Shown here: one piece after another, positions 25,706 through 32,709 of the stretch
Layout of the letters: the number at the start of each line of letters is the position of its first letter
Numbering within the stretch: position 1 is the stretch's first letter
DNA from: Deltaproteobacteria bacterium
GTDB taxonomy: Bacteria > Myxococcota_A > JAADFL01
Direction: 5' to 3'
Assembly (NCBI GenBank): GCA_013152945.1
Contig: JAADFL010000027.1
Coordinates: 1-32,709 of the forward strand
DNA length: 32,709 bases
Notes under the pieces: model-generated
Seen by the model: only the letters and a program-made list of their open reading frames with translations
Database searches by the model: none
What the model was told of the DNA's origin: nothing
Made by a program: the position numbers and the translations under genes

Positions 25706-26239
25706 TCAATTACACAACAGTCTTCGTACGAAGTGGTAGAATTCCCTCGGACCCAGAAATAACAGGTCGACCCGGCCCATGGTTATCTTGGCGCCGGAAC
25801 GCACTTCTTTTTCCTCTCCCACATCCAAGGCGGAATCGTTGAGCATTGTTCCGGCGGCGGATGCATTGTCACGTATAAAGTATTTTTCTCCCCTTTTCTC
25901 TATCCATGCATGTGCACGGGAAACAGATGCATCCCGGATCACTACGTCACATCCATCACCACATCCAATCAAGAACTCATCGGCTTTCGAACCATCTCTC
26001 GACTGAAGCACGAATACCGAGTAATCCACGGCAGGATCGAATTCTTCGGGTATGGATATGGAGGCTTCCCTCTTCATGGCCAACCGGTCCGTTGTCTCGC
26101 CGGGTTCGCCGTTTACAATCAGCAAAGGGTCGAGAACCTGGCAATGCATGAGCACTGCATGAGGATCTTTCTCCATGTACGCATCCACGTCATTTTCATT
26201 GCACAAACTTTTGAATTCGCCTAATGCCTTCAATTTCAA
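25706..26239 (-). CDS. FHA-domain protein, last gene of the HXS-type cluster
   Basis: The 177-residue protein ends in an FHA domain (about 85-165), a phosphothreonine-binding fold: FLIGCGDGCDVVIRD, VSRAHAWIEKRG (family Ser-Arg-x-His), YFIRDNASAAGTMLN and VDLLF. Residues 1-80 are a separate helical segment. It starts at TTG 26239 with GGAG five bases before, 45 nt after the stop of the radical SAM/methyltransferase gene. Co-transcription is likely. The reading frame is open all the way back to that upstream TGA, so it is also in frame with it. The FHA protein may link the peptide system to Ser/Thr kinase signalling, or be unrelated. Confidence 0.83.
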   Translation of the reverse strand: MKLKALGEFKSLCNENDVDAYMEKDPHAVLMHCQVLDPLLIVNGEPGETTDRLAMKREASISIPEEFDPAVDYSVFVLQSRDGSKADEFLIGCGDGCDVVIRDASVSRAHAWIEKRGEKYFIRDNASAAGTMLNDSALDVGEEKEVRSGAKITMGRVDLLFLGPREFYHFVRRLLCN

Positions 26240-26284
26240 TAATTCTCCAAGCTGCTGAAATGCTACGCAGAGGTCATCAAAGTG

Positions 26285-28015
26285 TCAAGAGCGGGTTTTT
26301 CCGAACACGAGCGTGAAAGAAGGCGAACTCCCGGGCCCCGGCTCACGTTTTTCCTTTAACTCGAAACCCAGTAATGTGGTTATCGGCAAGATCTCCGTGA
26401 TCGAAAGATTGTGGTAATGTTCGAATCTTTTTCCTTCGGGCGGCATGTTTTCGGTTATGACCATGAACGGCGAATCCTCGGAAATCACCAGCAAACCGCC
26501 AGGCTTTATAAGCCTCGATATCATAATCAGCGCGCCCAAAGGGTCCTGCATATGATCCAGGCATCTCAATGCAAGAACCGCATCGAAGTAACGGCCCGGA
26601 AGATCAGCTTCCTCAAAACGTGTTTTCAGATACCTGGCGCCGCGCGGCAGATCCACCGGATCGGAAACCGCATCGTCCCCGGGATCCACTGCCCAGTATT
26701 CCATGTCGTGCCTCTCCACCGAATTCCTGACCTGCTCCATGTAGCAAGGAAAGCCTGCTCCAATATCCAGGACCTTGCCACGAATGTTGGCCACCAGTTG
26801 TTTAAGCCATGTTTTTTCCAGGTCGAAAGGTTTCGATTCGCTTACTCGAAATGAAAGGCCCGGCGAACCTCCTGTTTCCTCGAGTTGAACCAGGGCATCG
26901 TCAATACGATCACAACCAGGATCCTGCATGAAATATACCTGTCCACTTTTCACAACCTCATTCAACAGGTCTTCATCGAAATCCATGGAGCACATGGGCA
27001 CACGAAAGGAATTGTTCGGCAGTTTCACCTCGATTGAATCAGCATGTTCACATCCCAACTCCCTGCCCGGCCACAATGCAATGGAATTAGGCCCGGCCCC
27101 CCTTAAAGGCCTAAGCGCCGATTCCCAGATCGTGCCCCTGTATCCCTCGTACAGCCCGGGACAACGCTCCTTCCATGCACAATCGTAACACTTGCCGGGT
27201 GCATAAAACCTTGCGCCCCTGTCCACCGCCTGGAGTTCCTGCTCGAATGTCTCCATCATGAACCTGATTGAATGCGATTCCAGGTTCTGATCGAGAAGGT
27301 CGAATGCCCCAGGTATACACGCGGGAAAACCATCATAACCGACCTGTACGCCCAACCTGTCGGCCAGGGCCACGGCGGCAAGGACTTCGCTTGCAGTTTC
27401 CTTTGGATCCGGCATTAGTTCGGCCAGGTTTTCAAGCGCGAATCCCTTGGGCTCCATCAATGAGAGTTTCAACCCGGCTCTTGGCATGGAAGCAACGAGT
27501 TCCACAATACCGGACAAACGCTTGACATTTACGCTCGTTATTACGGTGTTGACCACCAGCCATCCGATCCCTGTGTCGTGGAGATTCCTTGTGCCGGCAA
27601 GTGTCTGTTCGAATGCTCCATGCACATCGACCAAGCCGTCGTGCTCCTCCGGAACAGCGGAGTGCAATGAAACCAGGGCATAATCCAACCCTTTTTCAAC
27701 CAGCCTTTCAGCAAGCTTCACATATGAAAACATCCTGGCATTGGTCACGATTCCCGGTATCAAGTCCATTTCGGATGCAGCATGCACGAGCATTTCCAAA
27801 TCATCCCTGATGGCCGGTTCGCCGCCTGAAAATACAACACCGTCACATCCCTTCCGAACAGCCAGTTCCATCCTATGTAATATTTCCCTTGTGGCCAGGG
27901 CGGGCTTATCGCCCCTGCCACGACCCACATGACAAAAGGAGCAGTGATTATTACAGGCATAACCCAGTTTCAGCAGGGCGGCACATTCGAAAGACGGGGA
28001 GATCCTTACCGTCAC
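26285..28015 (-). CDS. Radical SAM enzyme fused to class I methyltransferase, in the HxsC position
   Basis: The 576-residue protein starts with a GTG that overlaps the precursor stop (GTGA). The radical SAM cluster motif is Cys21, Cys25, Cys28 (ACNNHCSFC), and SGGEP at 63-67 binds SAM. A second Cys group (Cys276, 279, 285 in KCYDCAWKERC) fits an auxiliary cluster. Residues about 410-576 form a Rossmann methyltransferase: VLDIGAGFP (415-423), acidic VDPGDD, YFDAVLALRCLDHMQDP and LIKPGGLLVISED. It should modify the HXS precursor just upstream, together with HxsB. HxsC family members, as I recall them, carry a CLMCSQPP-type motif that is absent here, so it is a replacement or a distant HxsC. The GTG is preferred over the upstream in-frame ATG (28123), which only reads the repeat DNA in another frame. 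Confidence 0.82.
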   Translation of the reverse strand: MTVRISPSFECAALLKLGYACNNHCSFCHVGRGRGDKPALATREILHRMELAVRKGCDGVVFSGGEPAIRDDLEMLVHAASEMDLIPGIVTNARMFSYVKLAERLVEKGLDYALVSLHSAVPEEHDGLVDVHGAFEQTLAGTRNLHDTGIGWLVVNTVITSVNVKRLSGIVELVASMPRAGLKLSLMEPKGFALENLAELMPDPKETASEVLAAVALADRLGVQVGYDGFPACIPGAFDLLDQNLESHSIRFMMETFEQELQAVDRGARFYAPGKCYDCAWKERCPGLYEGYRGTIWESALRPLRGAGPNSIALWPGRELGCEHADSIEVKLPNNSFRVPMCSMDFDEDLLNEVVKSGQVYFMQDPGCDRIDDALVQLEETGGSPGLSFRVSESKPFDLEKTWLKQLVANIRGKVLDIGAGFPCYMEQVRNSVERHDMEYWAVDPGDDAVSDPVDLPRGARYLKTRFEEADLPGRYFDAVLALRCLDHMQDPLGALIMISRLIKPGGLLVISEDSPFMVITENMPPEGKRFEHYHNLSITEILPITTLLGFELKEKREPGPGSSPSFTLVFGKTRS

Positions 28016-28425
28016 CAGGAACCGTGCGAACCGTGCGAGCCGTGGGAACCATGGGAAGCGTGGGAACCATGGGAGCCGTGGGAACCATGCGAACCGTGGG
28101 AACCATGCGAACCGTGCGAGCAATGTCCGGCCACGTCCCTCTTATAAGGCTGATCATGCATTGAGCCCTGCACTCTCCCGGCATCTTTACCGGTTGAGAC
28201 CGGTTTACTGCCCCTGACAGCATCGACGGCATGCACATCCAGCCTATGCCTGCGGATTGCAGCAGAGCTTCGCCTTGTTGTCAGGGCTACACCTGATGCA
28301 GCCAGAACAGCCCACCCGGTCTTGGAAAGAAAATTCCTCCTCGTAACCTTTGCGCCGTCGGGAGTGAGGAAGGCAGTTGCTTTCTTCTTCAATTTCGGGA
28401 ACCGTTTATCTCCATCACTCTTCAT
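28012..28425 (-). CDS. hxsA: HxsA-like precursor peptide: Tat leader plus C-terminal His-x-Ser repeats
   Basis: The 137-residue precursor starts at ATG 28425, overlapping the hxsB stop (ATGA), with GGGAGGAAGC as ribosome site. Residues 1-28 are basic. TRRNFLSK (28-35, Arg29-Arg30) followed by a hydrophobic stretch (WAVLAASGVAL) is a twin-arginine export signal. Then comes a spacer (about 52-100) and 12 consecutive His-x-Ser triplets at 101-136: one HCS, six HGS, one HAS, four HGS, then a final Trp137. This matches the His-Xaa-Ser repeat substrate HxsA of the HXS system. It is the likely substrate of the two adjacent radical SAM enzymes. The Tat signal implies folding or cofactor insertion before export. 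A passive His-rich metal-binding role is the alternative. Confidence 0.82.
   Translation of the reverse strand: MKSDGDKRFPKLKKKATAFLTPDGAKVTRRNFLSKTGWAVLAASGVALTTRRSSAAIRRHRLDVHAVDAVRGSKPVSTGKDAGRVQGSMHDQPYKRDVAGHCSHGSHGSHGSHGSHGSHGSHASHGSHGSHGSHGSW
28018..28125 (-). repeat. Twelve His-x-Ser codon triplets (core region of the precursor)
   Basis: The 108-bp tract is built from twelve 9-bp units. His codons alternate CAC and CAT, Gly GGT and GGC, Ser TCC and TCG, so the DNA is not a perfect repeat although the peptide nearly is. The drift with constant peptide fits selection on the protein. In a second minus-strand frame it reads as a chance ORF with a repeated Trp-Phe-Pro-Arg pattern. Confidence 0.85.
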
Positions 28426-29900
28426 GTGCTTCCTCCCTCGCCTTGACCAGGCAACGGTCTCGTCCATCTCTCGAAAATGGACAATGTATCCTGGTCTGCA
28501 TTCTGGAGCCTGGAGAACAACTCGTCAAGTACTCCCATTTGAATCTTGCACCGCTGGTTCTCCGGCTGCCTGGCAACCAGTTCTCCTTGTTGGGCATAAT
28601 TATACACGGGGCAGACCCCGCAGAAAAGTGCATAAGCACAGTCGGCACATCCCGGAAGCGCCTCGACACATGAGGCGGCGGCCAAAGCCTTTACAACCGG
28701 TGAGCCCGCAAGGTCACGATATTCGTCATCCTGAACGTGTCCCACCTTGAACAGGTCGTCGCCGGTCCTGGCCAGCATCCTGCCCTCGTCGCAGGTATAT
28801 ACGGAACCATCGAAATCGTACGCCAACTGGCCCAGGCCGGCGCCGCAGGGCGAACGAAGCTCCATGTAATTGGGTTCACGATCAGTCAATATCTTGGTAA
28901 GGTGGAGAGCAGCGGTCCGCTCCTGTATATCCACGCCGTTCAAAGCATGTTCCATGACACGTGCAAGAACTCGTTTGTAGAAAGCCAGGTATTCATCGGC
29001 ATCATAGCTTATTCCCGCCGCCCTGGAAGCCATGCCGAAAGGATTTAAAGGCCTTGCATGAAGGGTATTCAAACCCAAACGGACGTACTCGTCCACTATT
29101 TCCTCCGGCCGATCCAGGGAAGCTCTCGTAACCGTCAACAAGGCATTTACCTTGTACATTCTCGGATCCAGGTCACGCTTCCTGTACGCATCGTTCATTA
29201 CTTCCATGCCCGCCAAAACCGAATCATGGGAAGAGCCGCCCGGCAACGGCCTGTTCATGTCATGTAGTTCCTTTGGACCGTCCAGGCTCGTGCATACGAA
29301 CACCCCGTTGTCGGCCAGGTAATCCGCGGTCTCCCGGTCGAGCATTGACAGGTTGCTGACAAGTGTCAATACGAGTTCCTTGTCCTTTTCTTCAGCCAAT
29401 TTCCATGCATTTTCGACCACTCGCTTTATTACCCGCAGGTTGACCAGAGGCTCTCCTCCCTGGAATTCGATTGTGACTTGCCTTGCAGGTGTTTCAAAGG
29501 CACGCTCGAGCACCTTGTCTGCGGTTTCGGGTTTCATGTCCACGCCCCTGGTTCCCATGGGCGCCCTGCTGGCATGGCAATACACGCACCTGTGGTCACA
29601 TCTCAACGTGACAATCATTATGTGGAGATTTGTACCCGTAAACAGGTGGCTGTTGCGCCTTGCAATGATACGTACCTGCTCATCCGCGCTCATCCCGCCC
29701 TGAACAAAGCCCTTTTCGGCCAGTTCAGCGAATCTTTCGTGTCCATGTACAATCTCACCGTCCAGGAGATCCTGTAGTTCATCTTCGGCAAGAAATGCAT
29801 ACCTCCCGATATCGTTCGTAACCAGGAAAACATCATCTTCAAGTTTCCTGAAACGAAAATAGGGGGCAGTTGCCGGAAGTGATCTTGCAGGAAGTTTCAT
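28422..29900 (-). CDS. hxsB: HxsB-like radical SAM peptide maturase
   Basis: The 492-residue protein begins at ATG 29900, sharing a base with the upstream TGA (TGATG). Residues about 14-85 match the HxsB N-terminal domain (FRFRKLEDDVFLVTND, then RYAFLAEDEL, then LAEKGFV), probably a peptide-recognition part. Cys101, Cys105 and Cys108 (RCDHRCVYC) are the SAM cluster ligands, and QGGEPLVN is the GGEP motif. The C-terminal SPASM-type region (about 358-470) has many Cys (CGAGLGQ, VYTCDEG, ASCVEALPGCADCAYALFC, GVCP, NQRC) for two more clusters. Role: first or main modification of the His-x-Ser core. Its length and order of genes agree with the HXS system. Confidence 0.87.
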   Translation of the reverse strand: MKLPARSLPATAPYFRFRKLEDDVFLVTNDIGRYAFLAEDELQDLLDGEIVHGHERFAELAEKGFVQGGMSADEQVRIIARRNSHLFTGTNLHIMIVTLRCDHRCVYCHASRAPMGTRGVDMKPETADKVLERAFETPARQVTIEFQGGEPLVNLRVIKRVVENAWKLAEEKDKELVLTLVSNLSMLDRETADYLADNGVFVCTSLDGPKELHDMNRPLPGGSSHDSVLAGMEVMNDAYRKRDLDPRMYKVNALLTVTRASLDRPEEIVDEYVRLGLNTLHARPLNPFGMASRAAGISYDADEYLAFYKRVLARVMEHALNGVDIQERTAALHLTKILTDREPNYMELRSPCGAGLGQLAYDFDGSVYTCDEGRMLARTGDDLFKVGHVQDDEYRDLAGSPVVKALAAASCVEALPGCADCAYALFCGVCPVYNYAQQGELVARQPENQRCKIQMGVLDELFSRLQNADQDTLSIFERWTRPLPGQGEGGST

Positions 29901-30118
29901 CAGCCGGCATCTCCGTCTTCTCCGCGGGCCTTTTCCACGGTTCTTGCAATTACATAGTTTCCGAATTCCCAGGCCACGAGATCGGCATCGTATCCCTTGC
30001 GTGAAACAATTTTCAACTTACGCCCCGAATCACCCGGTGCCACTCGTATTGCTGCCACTCCTGAAAATGCATCAACCGCCTCTTCAATTGCCTCATCCGT
30101 GAACAATGAATCATCCAT
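29900..30118 (-). CDS. Small second HxsD-like protein
   Basis: I start this 72-residue protein at ATG 30118, 25 nt after the HxsD stop, since its order of elements then copies HxsD: FTDEAIEEAVDAF (compare YPDDAVMGAAYVF), a beta-strand pair (AIRVAPG, KLKIVSRKG) and EFGNYVIARTV (compare GFENELLHQAW). A longer form from 30220 would overlap hxsD by 77 bases and adds a basic, unpredicted tail. Its TGA overlaps the hxsB ATG. It is probably a truncated paralog that binds precursor or HxsB. The match is by eye and is weak. Confidence 0.62.
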   Translation of the reverse strand: MDDSLFTDEAIEEAVDAFSGVAAIRVAPGDSGRKLKIVSRKGYDADLVAWEFGNYVIARTVEKARGEDGDAG

Positions 30119-30143
30119 GTTTAATATCTTGCTCTTTGCCACG

Positions 30144-30560
30144 TCAACCGCCTTTGCCGTCTTTCCCGAATTTTTCTTCCCATGGAACCGCGATACCCAA
30201 TGGATCCTCGAGGTAGTCACCCGGTTCTTGCCCTATATGTTCTCCCCGGGTCTCTTCTTCGCTGTCGTCGTCCTGCGCGGTCAACAAGGCCCTGGCAAGT
30301 ATGTACTCACGAAGACGCCCCCTGCTCTGCTCCAGCCTGATACGCCAAGCCTGGTGCAACAACTCGTTCTCAAACCCGCCGGCCAGTTCCTCCAGGCCGT
30401 GCCGTCCTGTTTCATTCTTGGCCTTGAGACGCACAACGATCTTTTTCCTGTCTTGTCCGGCCTTTTCGAGCCTCACGTAACACCTGTCGATGAATACGTA
30501 TGCAGCACCCATGACAGCATCATCCGGGTAGATATCTGTATCGATTTCCAGGAGAACCAT
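30144..30560 (-). CDS. hxsD: HxsD-like accessory protein
   Basis: The 138-residue protein fits HxsD of the His-Xaa-Ser system, whose family mark is a late LLNDYxLRE-like element; here it is ENELLHQAWRIRLE (about 65-78), followed by REYILARALL. The N-terminal part reads DIYPDDAVMGAAYVFIDR, then strands YVRLEKAG and KIVVRLKAK. A conserved-looking acidic/aromatic tail ends DPLGIAVPWEEKFG. I choose ATG 30560, with GAGG four bases before it, over 30656, which would overlap the upstream gene. It follows the surface-protein gene by 47 nt. Role is unproven, probably substrate delivery to HxsB. Confidence 0.78.
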   Translation of the reverse strand: MVLLEIDTDIYPDDAVMGAAYVFIDRCYVRLEKAGQDRKKIVVRLKAKNETGRHGLEELAGGFENELLHQAWRIRLEQSRGRLREYILARALLTAQDDDSEEETRGEHIGQEPGDYLEDPLGIAVPWEEKFGKDGKGG

Positions 30561-30607: not shown

Positions 30608-32709
30608 TCAAGGACAACCTCCGCCGTTGCGTATCTCCACGACATAGGGATCGCATGTCATCGAAACACCGTCAATCCTGTAAACCTGGAGAAAATACCA
30701 GGCCGTATCGTCATCGCAATGATCCCTGCCGGGCGTCAGGGGTTGGCCGCTTGGTATACAGTTGCATTGGTCCTCGGTATTCGTGCCTCCCCCGGGGTGG
30801 TCGTCCGCCAAGTCTCCCGTCTTCTGCTGAGAACAGAGCATGGTCCTTTTAGAGCAATCGATTGCGGCGCCTTTTTGCTTGTAGAGGTCGAATTGGTACT
30901 GGTTGCCGGGATTGCTTGTAAACTTCACCTGTACCTTGAAATGGTCCTTTCCCTGGTTGTCATCACCACGGCTGTCAACCGCCTTGAACACAAACCAGTC
31001 CGAGGCCCATGCATTTGCAGCCCATGGGATATTGGAACTGACTGTAATGGGGGTATTGTTGTCGGATACATCCGGCAGCCGAACCGCATCGGCACACCCC
31101 CTGCCCCCGGGTGTCCCCTTCTGGAAGCACTCGCAGCCGGTATCGAATACCTTGTCCAGGTCGTAATAACCATCTTCACATCCGAGCAACACGCATGTAT
31201 TGCCGCCCTGGCAATTTATTCCGGTAACATGAGTGCCTTGGGCGAGCCTTCCCCAGCAATCCTGCGTGCACTCGCAACCGTCACCGTATGCACGGTCCAC
31301 GTCAAAGTACCCGTCCTTGCACGATGCAACCTGGCATTGCCCGTCGAGGCAGGCCACGCCATCCGCGTTCTGCGGAATCTGGCATAACTGGTCTGCAGGA
31401 GCGTCGTCTATTTTACCGTTGCAATCATTGTCTTTCTTGTCACAGGCCAATGCAGTCTTGTAACACGGCCCGTACTCGCAGCCATCTGAAAAATCATTGT
31501 TGTTGTCCCATTGGCCCGGATTACAGGCATCGATCTGGCAAGCTCCATCCTTACAGGACACTACGGCCGCGCCGTTCGGAGTTCCACAAAGCTGCGAGAT
31601 CGGCCCTTCGTCCACCTGGCCATTACAATCGTTGTCAACTTTGTCGCAGACCTCCGGTCCTGTCTTTGTACACGGACCATACTCACAGCCATCAGACGGA
31701 TCGTGGTTTGCATCCCAGTAACCTGCCGGGCAACCTACTCCATGTCCCGCCAATGGAATCAACTTGACAGGCCCATCCAGGTCATTGGTGGTTATCTTGA
31801 TGTTGCCCGAAAACATTCCCTCGCCGGCCGGAGTGAAAGTCGCACCGAAGAATATCCTGCTTCCCGGGCTGTCCAGGTTCTTGGGCAGGCCGTTCGGAAT
31901 ACCCGACAGATCGACCTGGAACACCGGATCGGAGTTCGGATCGATCTCGATCTTGAGAACCTGCAGTGTGCCGGAGCCGGTCTTTGATAACTGGAAAGAC
32001 GCAGGTTGCGACGTGGCTCCCTTGAATACATCCTTGAAATCGTACCCGGCCGGATCCACTACGAGTGTGGGGTTTACTCCTGTTCCGGAGATCACCACGC
32101 CCAGTTTATCGTTGTCAGGATCATTGCATTCTATCATCATTCCGCCCGAATCGGTCCCTTCGTCTACAGGCGAATAGGAAAAGGTCACTGTTACATCCTT
32201 GCCAGGGGCGATGGGATCTATCGACTTGGGACTGAAGTCCAACTCCGGAGAAATCCCGGCTGTCAATTCAATCTTGGTAATCTCCAGATCCTGGCCCCCG
32301 ATGTTTGAAATCGTCAGTGTCTTATCCAGCTTTGCACCTACTTGGACCTCTCCGAAATCAACCTGGTTGGCGGACAGCTTTATCGCCGGAGCCTGACTCG
32401 CCCTGCCCTTCAGCAAAAGTTCCACCGGATCCAGCTTATCTGCATCCACCACGATCTTGCCCTGGTCACCGGCAGAAACCAAGGGAGGCGTATACGTGAC
32501 CTTGAATCCTGCCTCGCCGCCGGGATCCAAATCCCATGTAACCTTGCCGCCGGTGTCCAACCCGAACATGGATGTCCCTTCAGTAAGTGTCACTGAAGAA
32601 ACGTGGATGGGACTCGTGCCCTTGTTGGTCATGGTGACATCCAGTTCCTTGGTCTTCCCCACGTAAACCGTGCCGAAATCGACCGGGTTGGGAAGCACGG
32701 AAAGCTCGG
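30608..32709 (-). CDS. Secreted choice-of-anchor-D / MopE-repeat surface protein (5' end outside window)
   Basis: The window holds the last 699 residues; no start is seen and the frame is open to the edge, so it is partial. Three ASH/choice-of-anchor-D-like beta domains come first, each beginning with a motif like NPVDFGTVYVG, NQVDFGEVQVG or GYDFKDVFKG. Two MopE-type metal-binding loops follow (CDKVDNDCNGQVDE and CDKKDNDCNGKIDD), with four modules of the form W/Y-D then DGCE or GCEC (for example YFDVDRAYGDGCEC). The C-terminal 180 residues are a Cys-rich, Asp-rich beta domain that resembles a pre-peptidase domain, ending NGGGCP. It is probably a large calcium- or metal-binding cell-surface protein, lying directly upstream of the HXS genes. 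Confidence 0.82.
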   Translation of the reverse strand, partial: ELSVLPNPVDFGTVYVGKTKELDVTMTNKGTSPIHVSSVTLTEGTSMFGLDTGGKVTWDLDPGGEAGFKVTYTPPLVSAGDQGKIVVDADKLDPVELLLKGRASQAPAIKLSANQVDFGEVQVGAKLDKTLTISNIGGQDLEITKIELTAGISPELDFSPKSIDPIAPGKDVTVTFSYSPVDEGTDSGGMMIECNDPDNDKLGVVISGTGVNPTLVVDPAGYDFKDVFKGATSQPASFQLSKTGSGTLQVLKIEIDPNSDPVFQVDLSGIPNGLPKNLDSPGSRIFFGATFTPAGEGMFSGNIKITTNDLDGPVKLIPLAGHGVGCPAGYWDANHDPSDGCEYGPCTKTGPEVCDKVDNDCNGQVDEGPISQLCGTPNGAAVVSCKDGACQIDACNPGQWDNNNDFSDGCEYGPCYKTALACDKKDNDCNGKIDDAPADQLCQIPQNADGVACLDGQCQVASCKDGYFDVDRAYGDGCECTQDCWGRLAQGTHVTGINCQGGNTCVLLGCEDGYYDLDKVFDTGCECFQKGTPGGRGCADAVRLPDVSDNNTPITVSSNIPWAANAWASDWFVFKAVDSRGDDNQGKDHFKVQVKFTSNPGNQYQFDLYKQKGAAIDCSKRTMLCSQQKTGDLADDHPGGGTNTEDQCNCIPSGQPLTPGRDHCDDDTAWYFLQVYRIDGVSMTCDPYVVEIRNGGGCP

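Follow-up and report, generated by a model that had tools for sequence, protein, structure and literature searches.

A His-Xaa-Ser peptide-maturation operon of HxsA4 type with a radical SAM-methyltransferase fusion in the HxsC slot, and a C-terminal domain that tracks HxsB in Myxococcota

The window analyzed here is a whole 32,709-base contig from a 4.8 Mb genome of Myxococcota (phylum inferred from named relatives). On its minus strand, at 26285-30560, five nearly gapless genes are arranged in the order HxsD, HxsD-like, HxsB, HxsA4 and a radical S-adenosylmethionine (SAM) enzyme fused to a methyltransferase. Judged by family-model matches, this is a Hxs (His-Xaa-Ser) peptide-maturation operon of the HxsA4 type. 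It is a variant of a catalogued system and no new kind, HxsA4, HxsD-like and HxsC4 already being NCBIfam families; its unusual part is the HxsC slot, which is occupied by the fusion. The gene directly upstream probably belongs to the Hxs system and encodes an unnamed C-terminal domain, UPct, that co-occurs with HxsB nearly one to one. Hxs is, to our knowledge, a widespread radical SAM system without known product or role, and UPct is a first concrete partner for it that can be tested, in a phylum with cultured members.

NCBIfam cut-offs were passed by four of the five operon genes. HxsD (30144-30560) scored 60 bits with TIGR03976 (cut-off 50), the HxsD-like protein (HxsD_rel, 29900-30142) 45.1 bits with NF038315 (cut-off 41), the radical SAM/SPASM peptide maturase HxsB (28422-29900) 530.6 bits with TIGR03978 (cut-off 370) and, marginally, the 137-residue His-Xaa-Ser precursor HxsA4 (28012-28425) 55.7 bits with NF038313 (cut-off 55). 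In HxsB, Cys101/105/108 form a CxxxCxxC motif, and residues 352-451 contain Cys in a SPASM-like arrangement; the genome holds a single HxsB over cut-off, and a single A4 gene was found in it. The stop codon of HxsD is followed after 1 nucleotide (nt) by the GTG start of the HxsD-like gene, and the GTG at 30220, where the program-called open reading frame (ORF) starts, is not needed. The remaining junctions, TGATG (HxsD-like/HxsB), ATGA (HxsB/precursor) and GTGA (precursor/fusion), read GCTGATGAA, CACATGAAG and CTGGTGACG and overlap by 1, 4 and 4 nt; the fusion was started at the GTG inside the precursor stop region rather than at the TTG at 28123. The precursor is translationally coupled on both sides by its 4-nt overlaps. 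Gene positions, strand, junctions, coupling and Hxs identity had been proposed in an initial annotation of this DNA and were all borne out.

The precursor ends in HCS(HGS)6HAS(HGS)4W (28015-28125), a run of 12 consecutive HxS triplets, whereas no run longer than 2 arose in 2000 shuffled versions of this protein. This repeat core holds one Cys. A signal-like segment, TRRNFLSKTGWAVLAASGVAL, lies at 28255-28344, and segments of a similar kind are present in many other A4 precursors. The repeat protein could alternatively be a collagen-like structural protein that the radical enzymes only tune, as its weak match to Pfam Collagen (20.7 bits, cut-off 27.2; two relatives are slightly above the cut-off) might suggest. 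Any period-3 Gly repeat yields such a match, however, the repeat lacks proline and the HxsA4 model fits better, and we regard a collagen-like role as highly improbable. Among related loci (L-numbers; G-numbers denote sampled genomes, G000 being that of the window), the longest tracts seen were 35 and 59 HxS triplets, in two adjacent HxsA4 genes at L130 (6667-8043).

The upstream gene (30608-32707, minus strand) ends 47 nt ahead of HxsD and is open at the contig end. It encodes a choice-of-anchor D / MopE-type Cys-rich secreted protein (NF012200, 125 bits; Pfam HYDIN/ASH Ig-like domains and MopE motifs). This most informative neighbor lies outside the span of the initial annotation (25706-30560). 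In L156, L138, L077, L086 and L087, a homologue on the same strand immediately precedes HxsD or HxsD-like. None of 35 UPct members (about 190 residues; 30611-31207 in the window) matched a Pfam or NCBIfam family, and comparison with the PDB gave no clear relative; the domain would merit a model of its own in Pfam/NCBIfam. The domain is always C-terminal and has conserved Cys, and the proteins typically end in CxxYxLxxSNG plus a few residues. Where the start could be placed, UPct proteins mostly begin with lipobox-like signal peptides, and they often carry MopE-type motifs.

Co-occurrence was scored in 377 genomes of the phylum Myxococcota (UPct at E <= 1e-10; HxsB over the NCBIfam cut-off). 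HxsB was present in 125/377 genomes; 121 had both HxsB and UPct, 4 HxsB only, 8 UPct only and 244 neither (phi 0.93, odds ratio 923; Fisher p 5e-83, a value that ignores kinship). Inside families f6 (16/16 vs 0/19), f11 (5/5 vs 0/10) and f22 (16/16 vs 0/6) UPct tracked HxsB perfectly, so the link is more than common descent. The control surface domain, choice-of-anchor D, gave a phi of 0.23 with HxsB and did not track it inside families. An A4 match was found in 7 of the 8 UPct-only genomes, in three of them at a contig edge, and HxsB is therefore probably missing from those assemblies. Of the four genomes with HxsB alone, one (G065) lacks A4 and represents a different type of Hxs; A4 was also absent from the twelve genomes in which it was sought in the joint absence of HxsB and UPct. 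UPct genes are often distant from HxsB, and 7 of about 160 listed copies were within 10 kb of it (about 0.7 expected; rough Poisson p 1e-5, close pairs counted by hand). As far as these tools show, the link between UPct and Hxs is apparently undescribed so far. The HxsB of G065, whose genome lacks UPct as well, is of the type seen at L076 and L078, where HRSHSSH repeats are followed by a further C-terminal region.

The constant C-terminal position of UPct, its conserved Cys, its CxxYxLxxSNG tail and its tie to HxsB would also suit UPct proteins being substrates, modified by HxsB or the fusion, with HxsA4 as a second substrate or a carrier. We consider this unlikely: it is the precursor that is translationally coupled to the maturases in the window, while many UPct genes lie at a distance from HxsB, and UPct proteins have lipoprotein signals.

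The fusion (26285-28015, 576 residues) comprises an HxsC-like radical SAM enzyme and a C-terminal methyltransferase (Pfam Radical_SAM and Methyltransf_11). It fails both the HxsC model (TIGR03977, 88 bits, cut-off 267.9) and the HxsC4 model (77.9 bits, cut-off 500). No HxsC or HxsC4 over cut-off was found in the genome, the best HxsC4 score elsewhere in it being 170.9; given a single HxsB and a single A4, the HxsC role falls most plausibly to the fusion. Its cluster Cys and SAM motifs are intact. Cys 21/25/28 (radical SAM) and 276/279/285/322 (twitch-like) and the methyltransferase Gly 413 and 419 are invariant in 35 homologues. Searched with Foldseek, the predicted structure (predicted local distance difference test score 87.6) resembled the radical SAM enzymes BlsE, SkfB and SuiB and class I methyltransferases, the latter domain being placed at 26468-26782 (PF08241, 37.3 bits). 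These genomes hold many related enzymes, and several Hxs loci have no fusion, as would be expected if it were an unrelated neighboring enzyme and HxsB alone acted on the precursor. The 4-nt overlap between the fusion and precursor genes and the repeated occurrence of fusions next to A4 loci argue against this, and we judge it distinctly unlikely.

Triceptide radical SAM/SPASM enzymes link an aromatic residue i to the C-beta of residue i+2: MscB bonds Phe C4 to Ser C-beta, HaaB and YhhB bond His C2 to the C-beta of residue i+2, and the precedented pairs are Phe-Ser (MscB), His-Ala (HaaB, ScaB) and His-Arg (YhhB) (PMC11002830). A His-Ser cross-linked ribbon is proposed here because H-G-S matches the triceptide i, i+2 spacing. 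Beyond the gene identities, coupling, synteny and co-occurrence, we infer the chemistry (bond and methyl group), the export route and the UPct partnership as follows. HxsD and the HxsD-like protein, small and paired, would bring the HxsA4 leader to HxsB. By analogy with triceptides, HxsB may then join His(i) to Ser(i+2) by a carbon-carbon bond in successive HGS triplets, and the fusion would add a second radical step and methylation on the same repeats. The product would be exported via its signal-like segment and would work together with UPct-bearing lipoproteins, one of which is putatively encoded directly upstream. This is our best explanation of the whole, and we give it about an even chance of being correct. 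A more tentative extension, possible rather than probable, is that the Hxs product serves as a dedicated partner of UPct, a hitherto unrecognized domain. It would be a radical-modified His-Gly-Ser ribbon, probably polycyclic and methylated, to which surface lipoproteins bind through UPct after its export, covalently or otherwise, Hxs being a surface-assembly system of Myxococcota and not a secreted-antibiotic pathway. From the i, i+2 spacing of His and Ser and from the methyltransferase domain of the fusion, precise mass changes can be predicted for this chemistry.

The least secure step of this mechanism is the type of bond. HxsB might belong to an ordinary Hxs system and make another His/Ser change (an epimer or a different cross-link), the HGS tract being a metal-binding polymer and the lipoproteins merely sharing its niche. 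Thioether and sulfatase-type maturases are the best secondary matches of HxsB, His at every third residue suits metal binding, and MopE-type motifs are frequent in UPct proteins. With a single Cys in the core a thioether array is impossible, however, and mere bystanders would not be expected to follow HxsB inside families, as UPct does and the control surface domain does not. We consider this combination doubtful, though a serious contender.

Several further results weigh against the proposed mechanism and the assignments beneath it. HxsB matched cyclophane enzymes less well than it did sulfatase maturases and the thioether maturases (PapB, SCIFF), so its bond may be of another type. The HxsA4 assignment exceeds the NF038313 cut-off by 0.7 bit, and the twin-arginine translocation (Tat) signal model was narrowly missed by the precursor (TIGR01409, 16.0 vs 16.7 bits), with a TRRNFLSK motif visible. 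Fold matches of HxsD were weak (best E 0.036). In a tree, the fusion of the window sits on a long branch together with L091 and HxsC-like enzymes that lack the methyltransferase, apart from the large fusion group; the fusions are perhaps not a single orthologous group, and the tree may reflect loss of the methyltransferase or its gain more than once, both histories being compatible with it. The seed sequences of the UPct profile came from genomes that have HxsB. In genomes labelled Elusimicrobia, Schekmanbacteria and Nanoarchaeota, A4-like loci were found without UPct, so the UPct-HxsB link holds at most within Myxococcota.

The C-terminal tail of HxsD, DPLGIA-x-x-WEEK (about 30144-30206), is near-invariant, with D119, P120 and I123 invariant in 44 sequences. 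This most conserved part of the protein lies outside the 90-position TIGR03976 match, which stops earlier. HxsD is predicted to fold as beta-alpha-beta-beta-alpha. It was considered as a PqqD-like recognition element, and this was rejected: the model has no winged helix, and its weak matches were to S6, Pcc1 and RPB11-type folds. A role of the tail as substrate where no precursor is adjacent was also dropped, as an A4 gene was found elsewhere in 12/13 such genomes tested; the lone exception, G001, is 79% complete.

The gene order of the window, D-Dr-B-A4-fusion (Dr, HxsD-like), was recovered in L133 and, as Dr-B-A4-fusion, in L108, in line with the neighborhood search suggested by the initial annotation; in L156 and L128 a fusion lies convergently beside the B-A4 cassette. 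Two layouts were distinguished among relatives, and the two HxsD tail types correspond to them. In the first (L084, L089, L097, L110, L127, L129 and L135), the order is fusion > HxsD > HxsD-like > HxsB > HxsA4 > HxsC4, the HxsD tail is DPLGIA[MQ]SWEEK and the precursor lacks a strongly hydrophobic segment. In the second, HxsD > HxsD-like > HxsB > HxsA4, the precursor has a signal-like segment and the HxsD tail is mostly DPLGIAVPWEEK. No HxsC4 was seen in loci of the second layout, its presence being undecidable at some related loci where the contig end is too near. The C slot of this layout holds the fusion in the window, L108 and L133 (convergent in L156 and L128) and another radical SAM enzyme in L080 and L081. 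In many genomes the system is split, HxsD, HxsD-like and HxsB standing together with an HxsC-like enzyme (L069-L072, L098-L103, L106) and an orphan signal-type A4 elsewhere (L216-L227). When A4-less clusters were compared all against all in search of an additional conserved ORF, mostly antisense ORFs emerged, and that candidate was rejected. HxsA4-like cassettes were also seen on contigs labelled Nanoarchaeota (L133), Elusimicrobia (L171) and Schekmanbacteria (L148), for which transfer and mis-binning are both possible.

The HxsA/B/C/D system is reportedly due to Haft and Basu. The window shares with classical Hxs (TIGR03976-TIGR03978) HxsB and HxsD over cut-off, a His-Xaa-Ser repeat precursor beside its maturases and a compact one-strand cluster; it differs in its below-cut-off, methyltransferase-fused HxsC-like enzyme and in the additional HxsD-like protein. 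The initial annotation had described the gene set as departing from the usual four, which holds for the HxsC slot and does not for HxsD-like and HxsA4, known NCBIfam families that are common in Myxococcota. With the HxsA4/HxsC4 variant (NF038313, NF038332, NF038315) the window has in common HxsA4 and HxsD-like over cut-off and the cassette D-Dr-B-A4, whereas its genome lacks HxsC4, its precursor has a signal-like segment and its HxsD tail is DPLGIAVPWEEK, not DPLGIA[MQ]SWEEK. Likeness to triceptides (XncB, OscB, MscB, HaaB, YhhB) lies in the radical SAM/SPASM enzyme, in precursor triplets of the aromatic-x-residue form (HGS, HCS and HAS here) and in the precedent for His and Ser; unlike them, HxsB is a separate family without known product, and the repeat is much longer and uniform. 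MYXO-CTERM/myxosortase (PMC11980579) likewise ties a C-terminal feature of Myxococcota surface proteins to a processing system, but MYXO-CTERM is a short tripartite tag and UPct a Cys-containing domain on lipoprotein-type proteins.

HxsB and HxsC have been named merely as putative maturases (PMC9062424). No description of an HxsB product or of Hxs chemistry was found in the literature searched, most subscription journals being outside its coverage, which agrees with the expectation of a chemically uncharacterized product. For Tat-linked ribosomally synthesized and post-translationally modified peptides and for radical SAM-methyltransferase fusions, nothing useful beyond PMC9062424 was found in the same literature.

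Further multi-gene radical SAM clusters were observed in the genome of the window at G000:C70, C218 and C14 (L228-L230), without a recognized precursor. An FHA-domain gene (25706-26239, minus strand; PF00498, 52.3 bits) begins 45 nt past the fusion, at the distance initially annotated, where it had been included in the operon span. It was judged to be outside the Hxs system: no FHA homologue was found near the Hxs genes of the 119 related loci, and the gene has a promoter-like site of its own. Scored with the sigma-70 consensus, this site (TTGACA-17-TAGCAT, 26260-26288, minus strand; 10/12) was the best of the region; it is positioned where the fusion gene ends, immediately ahead of the FHA gene.

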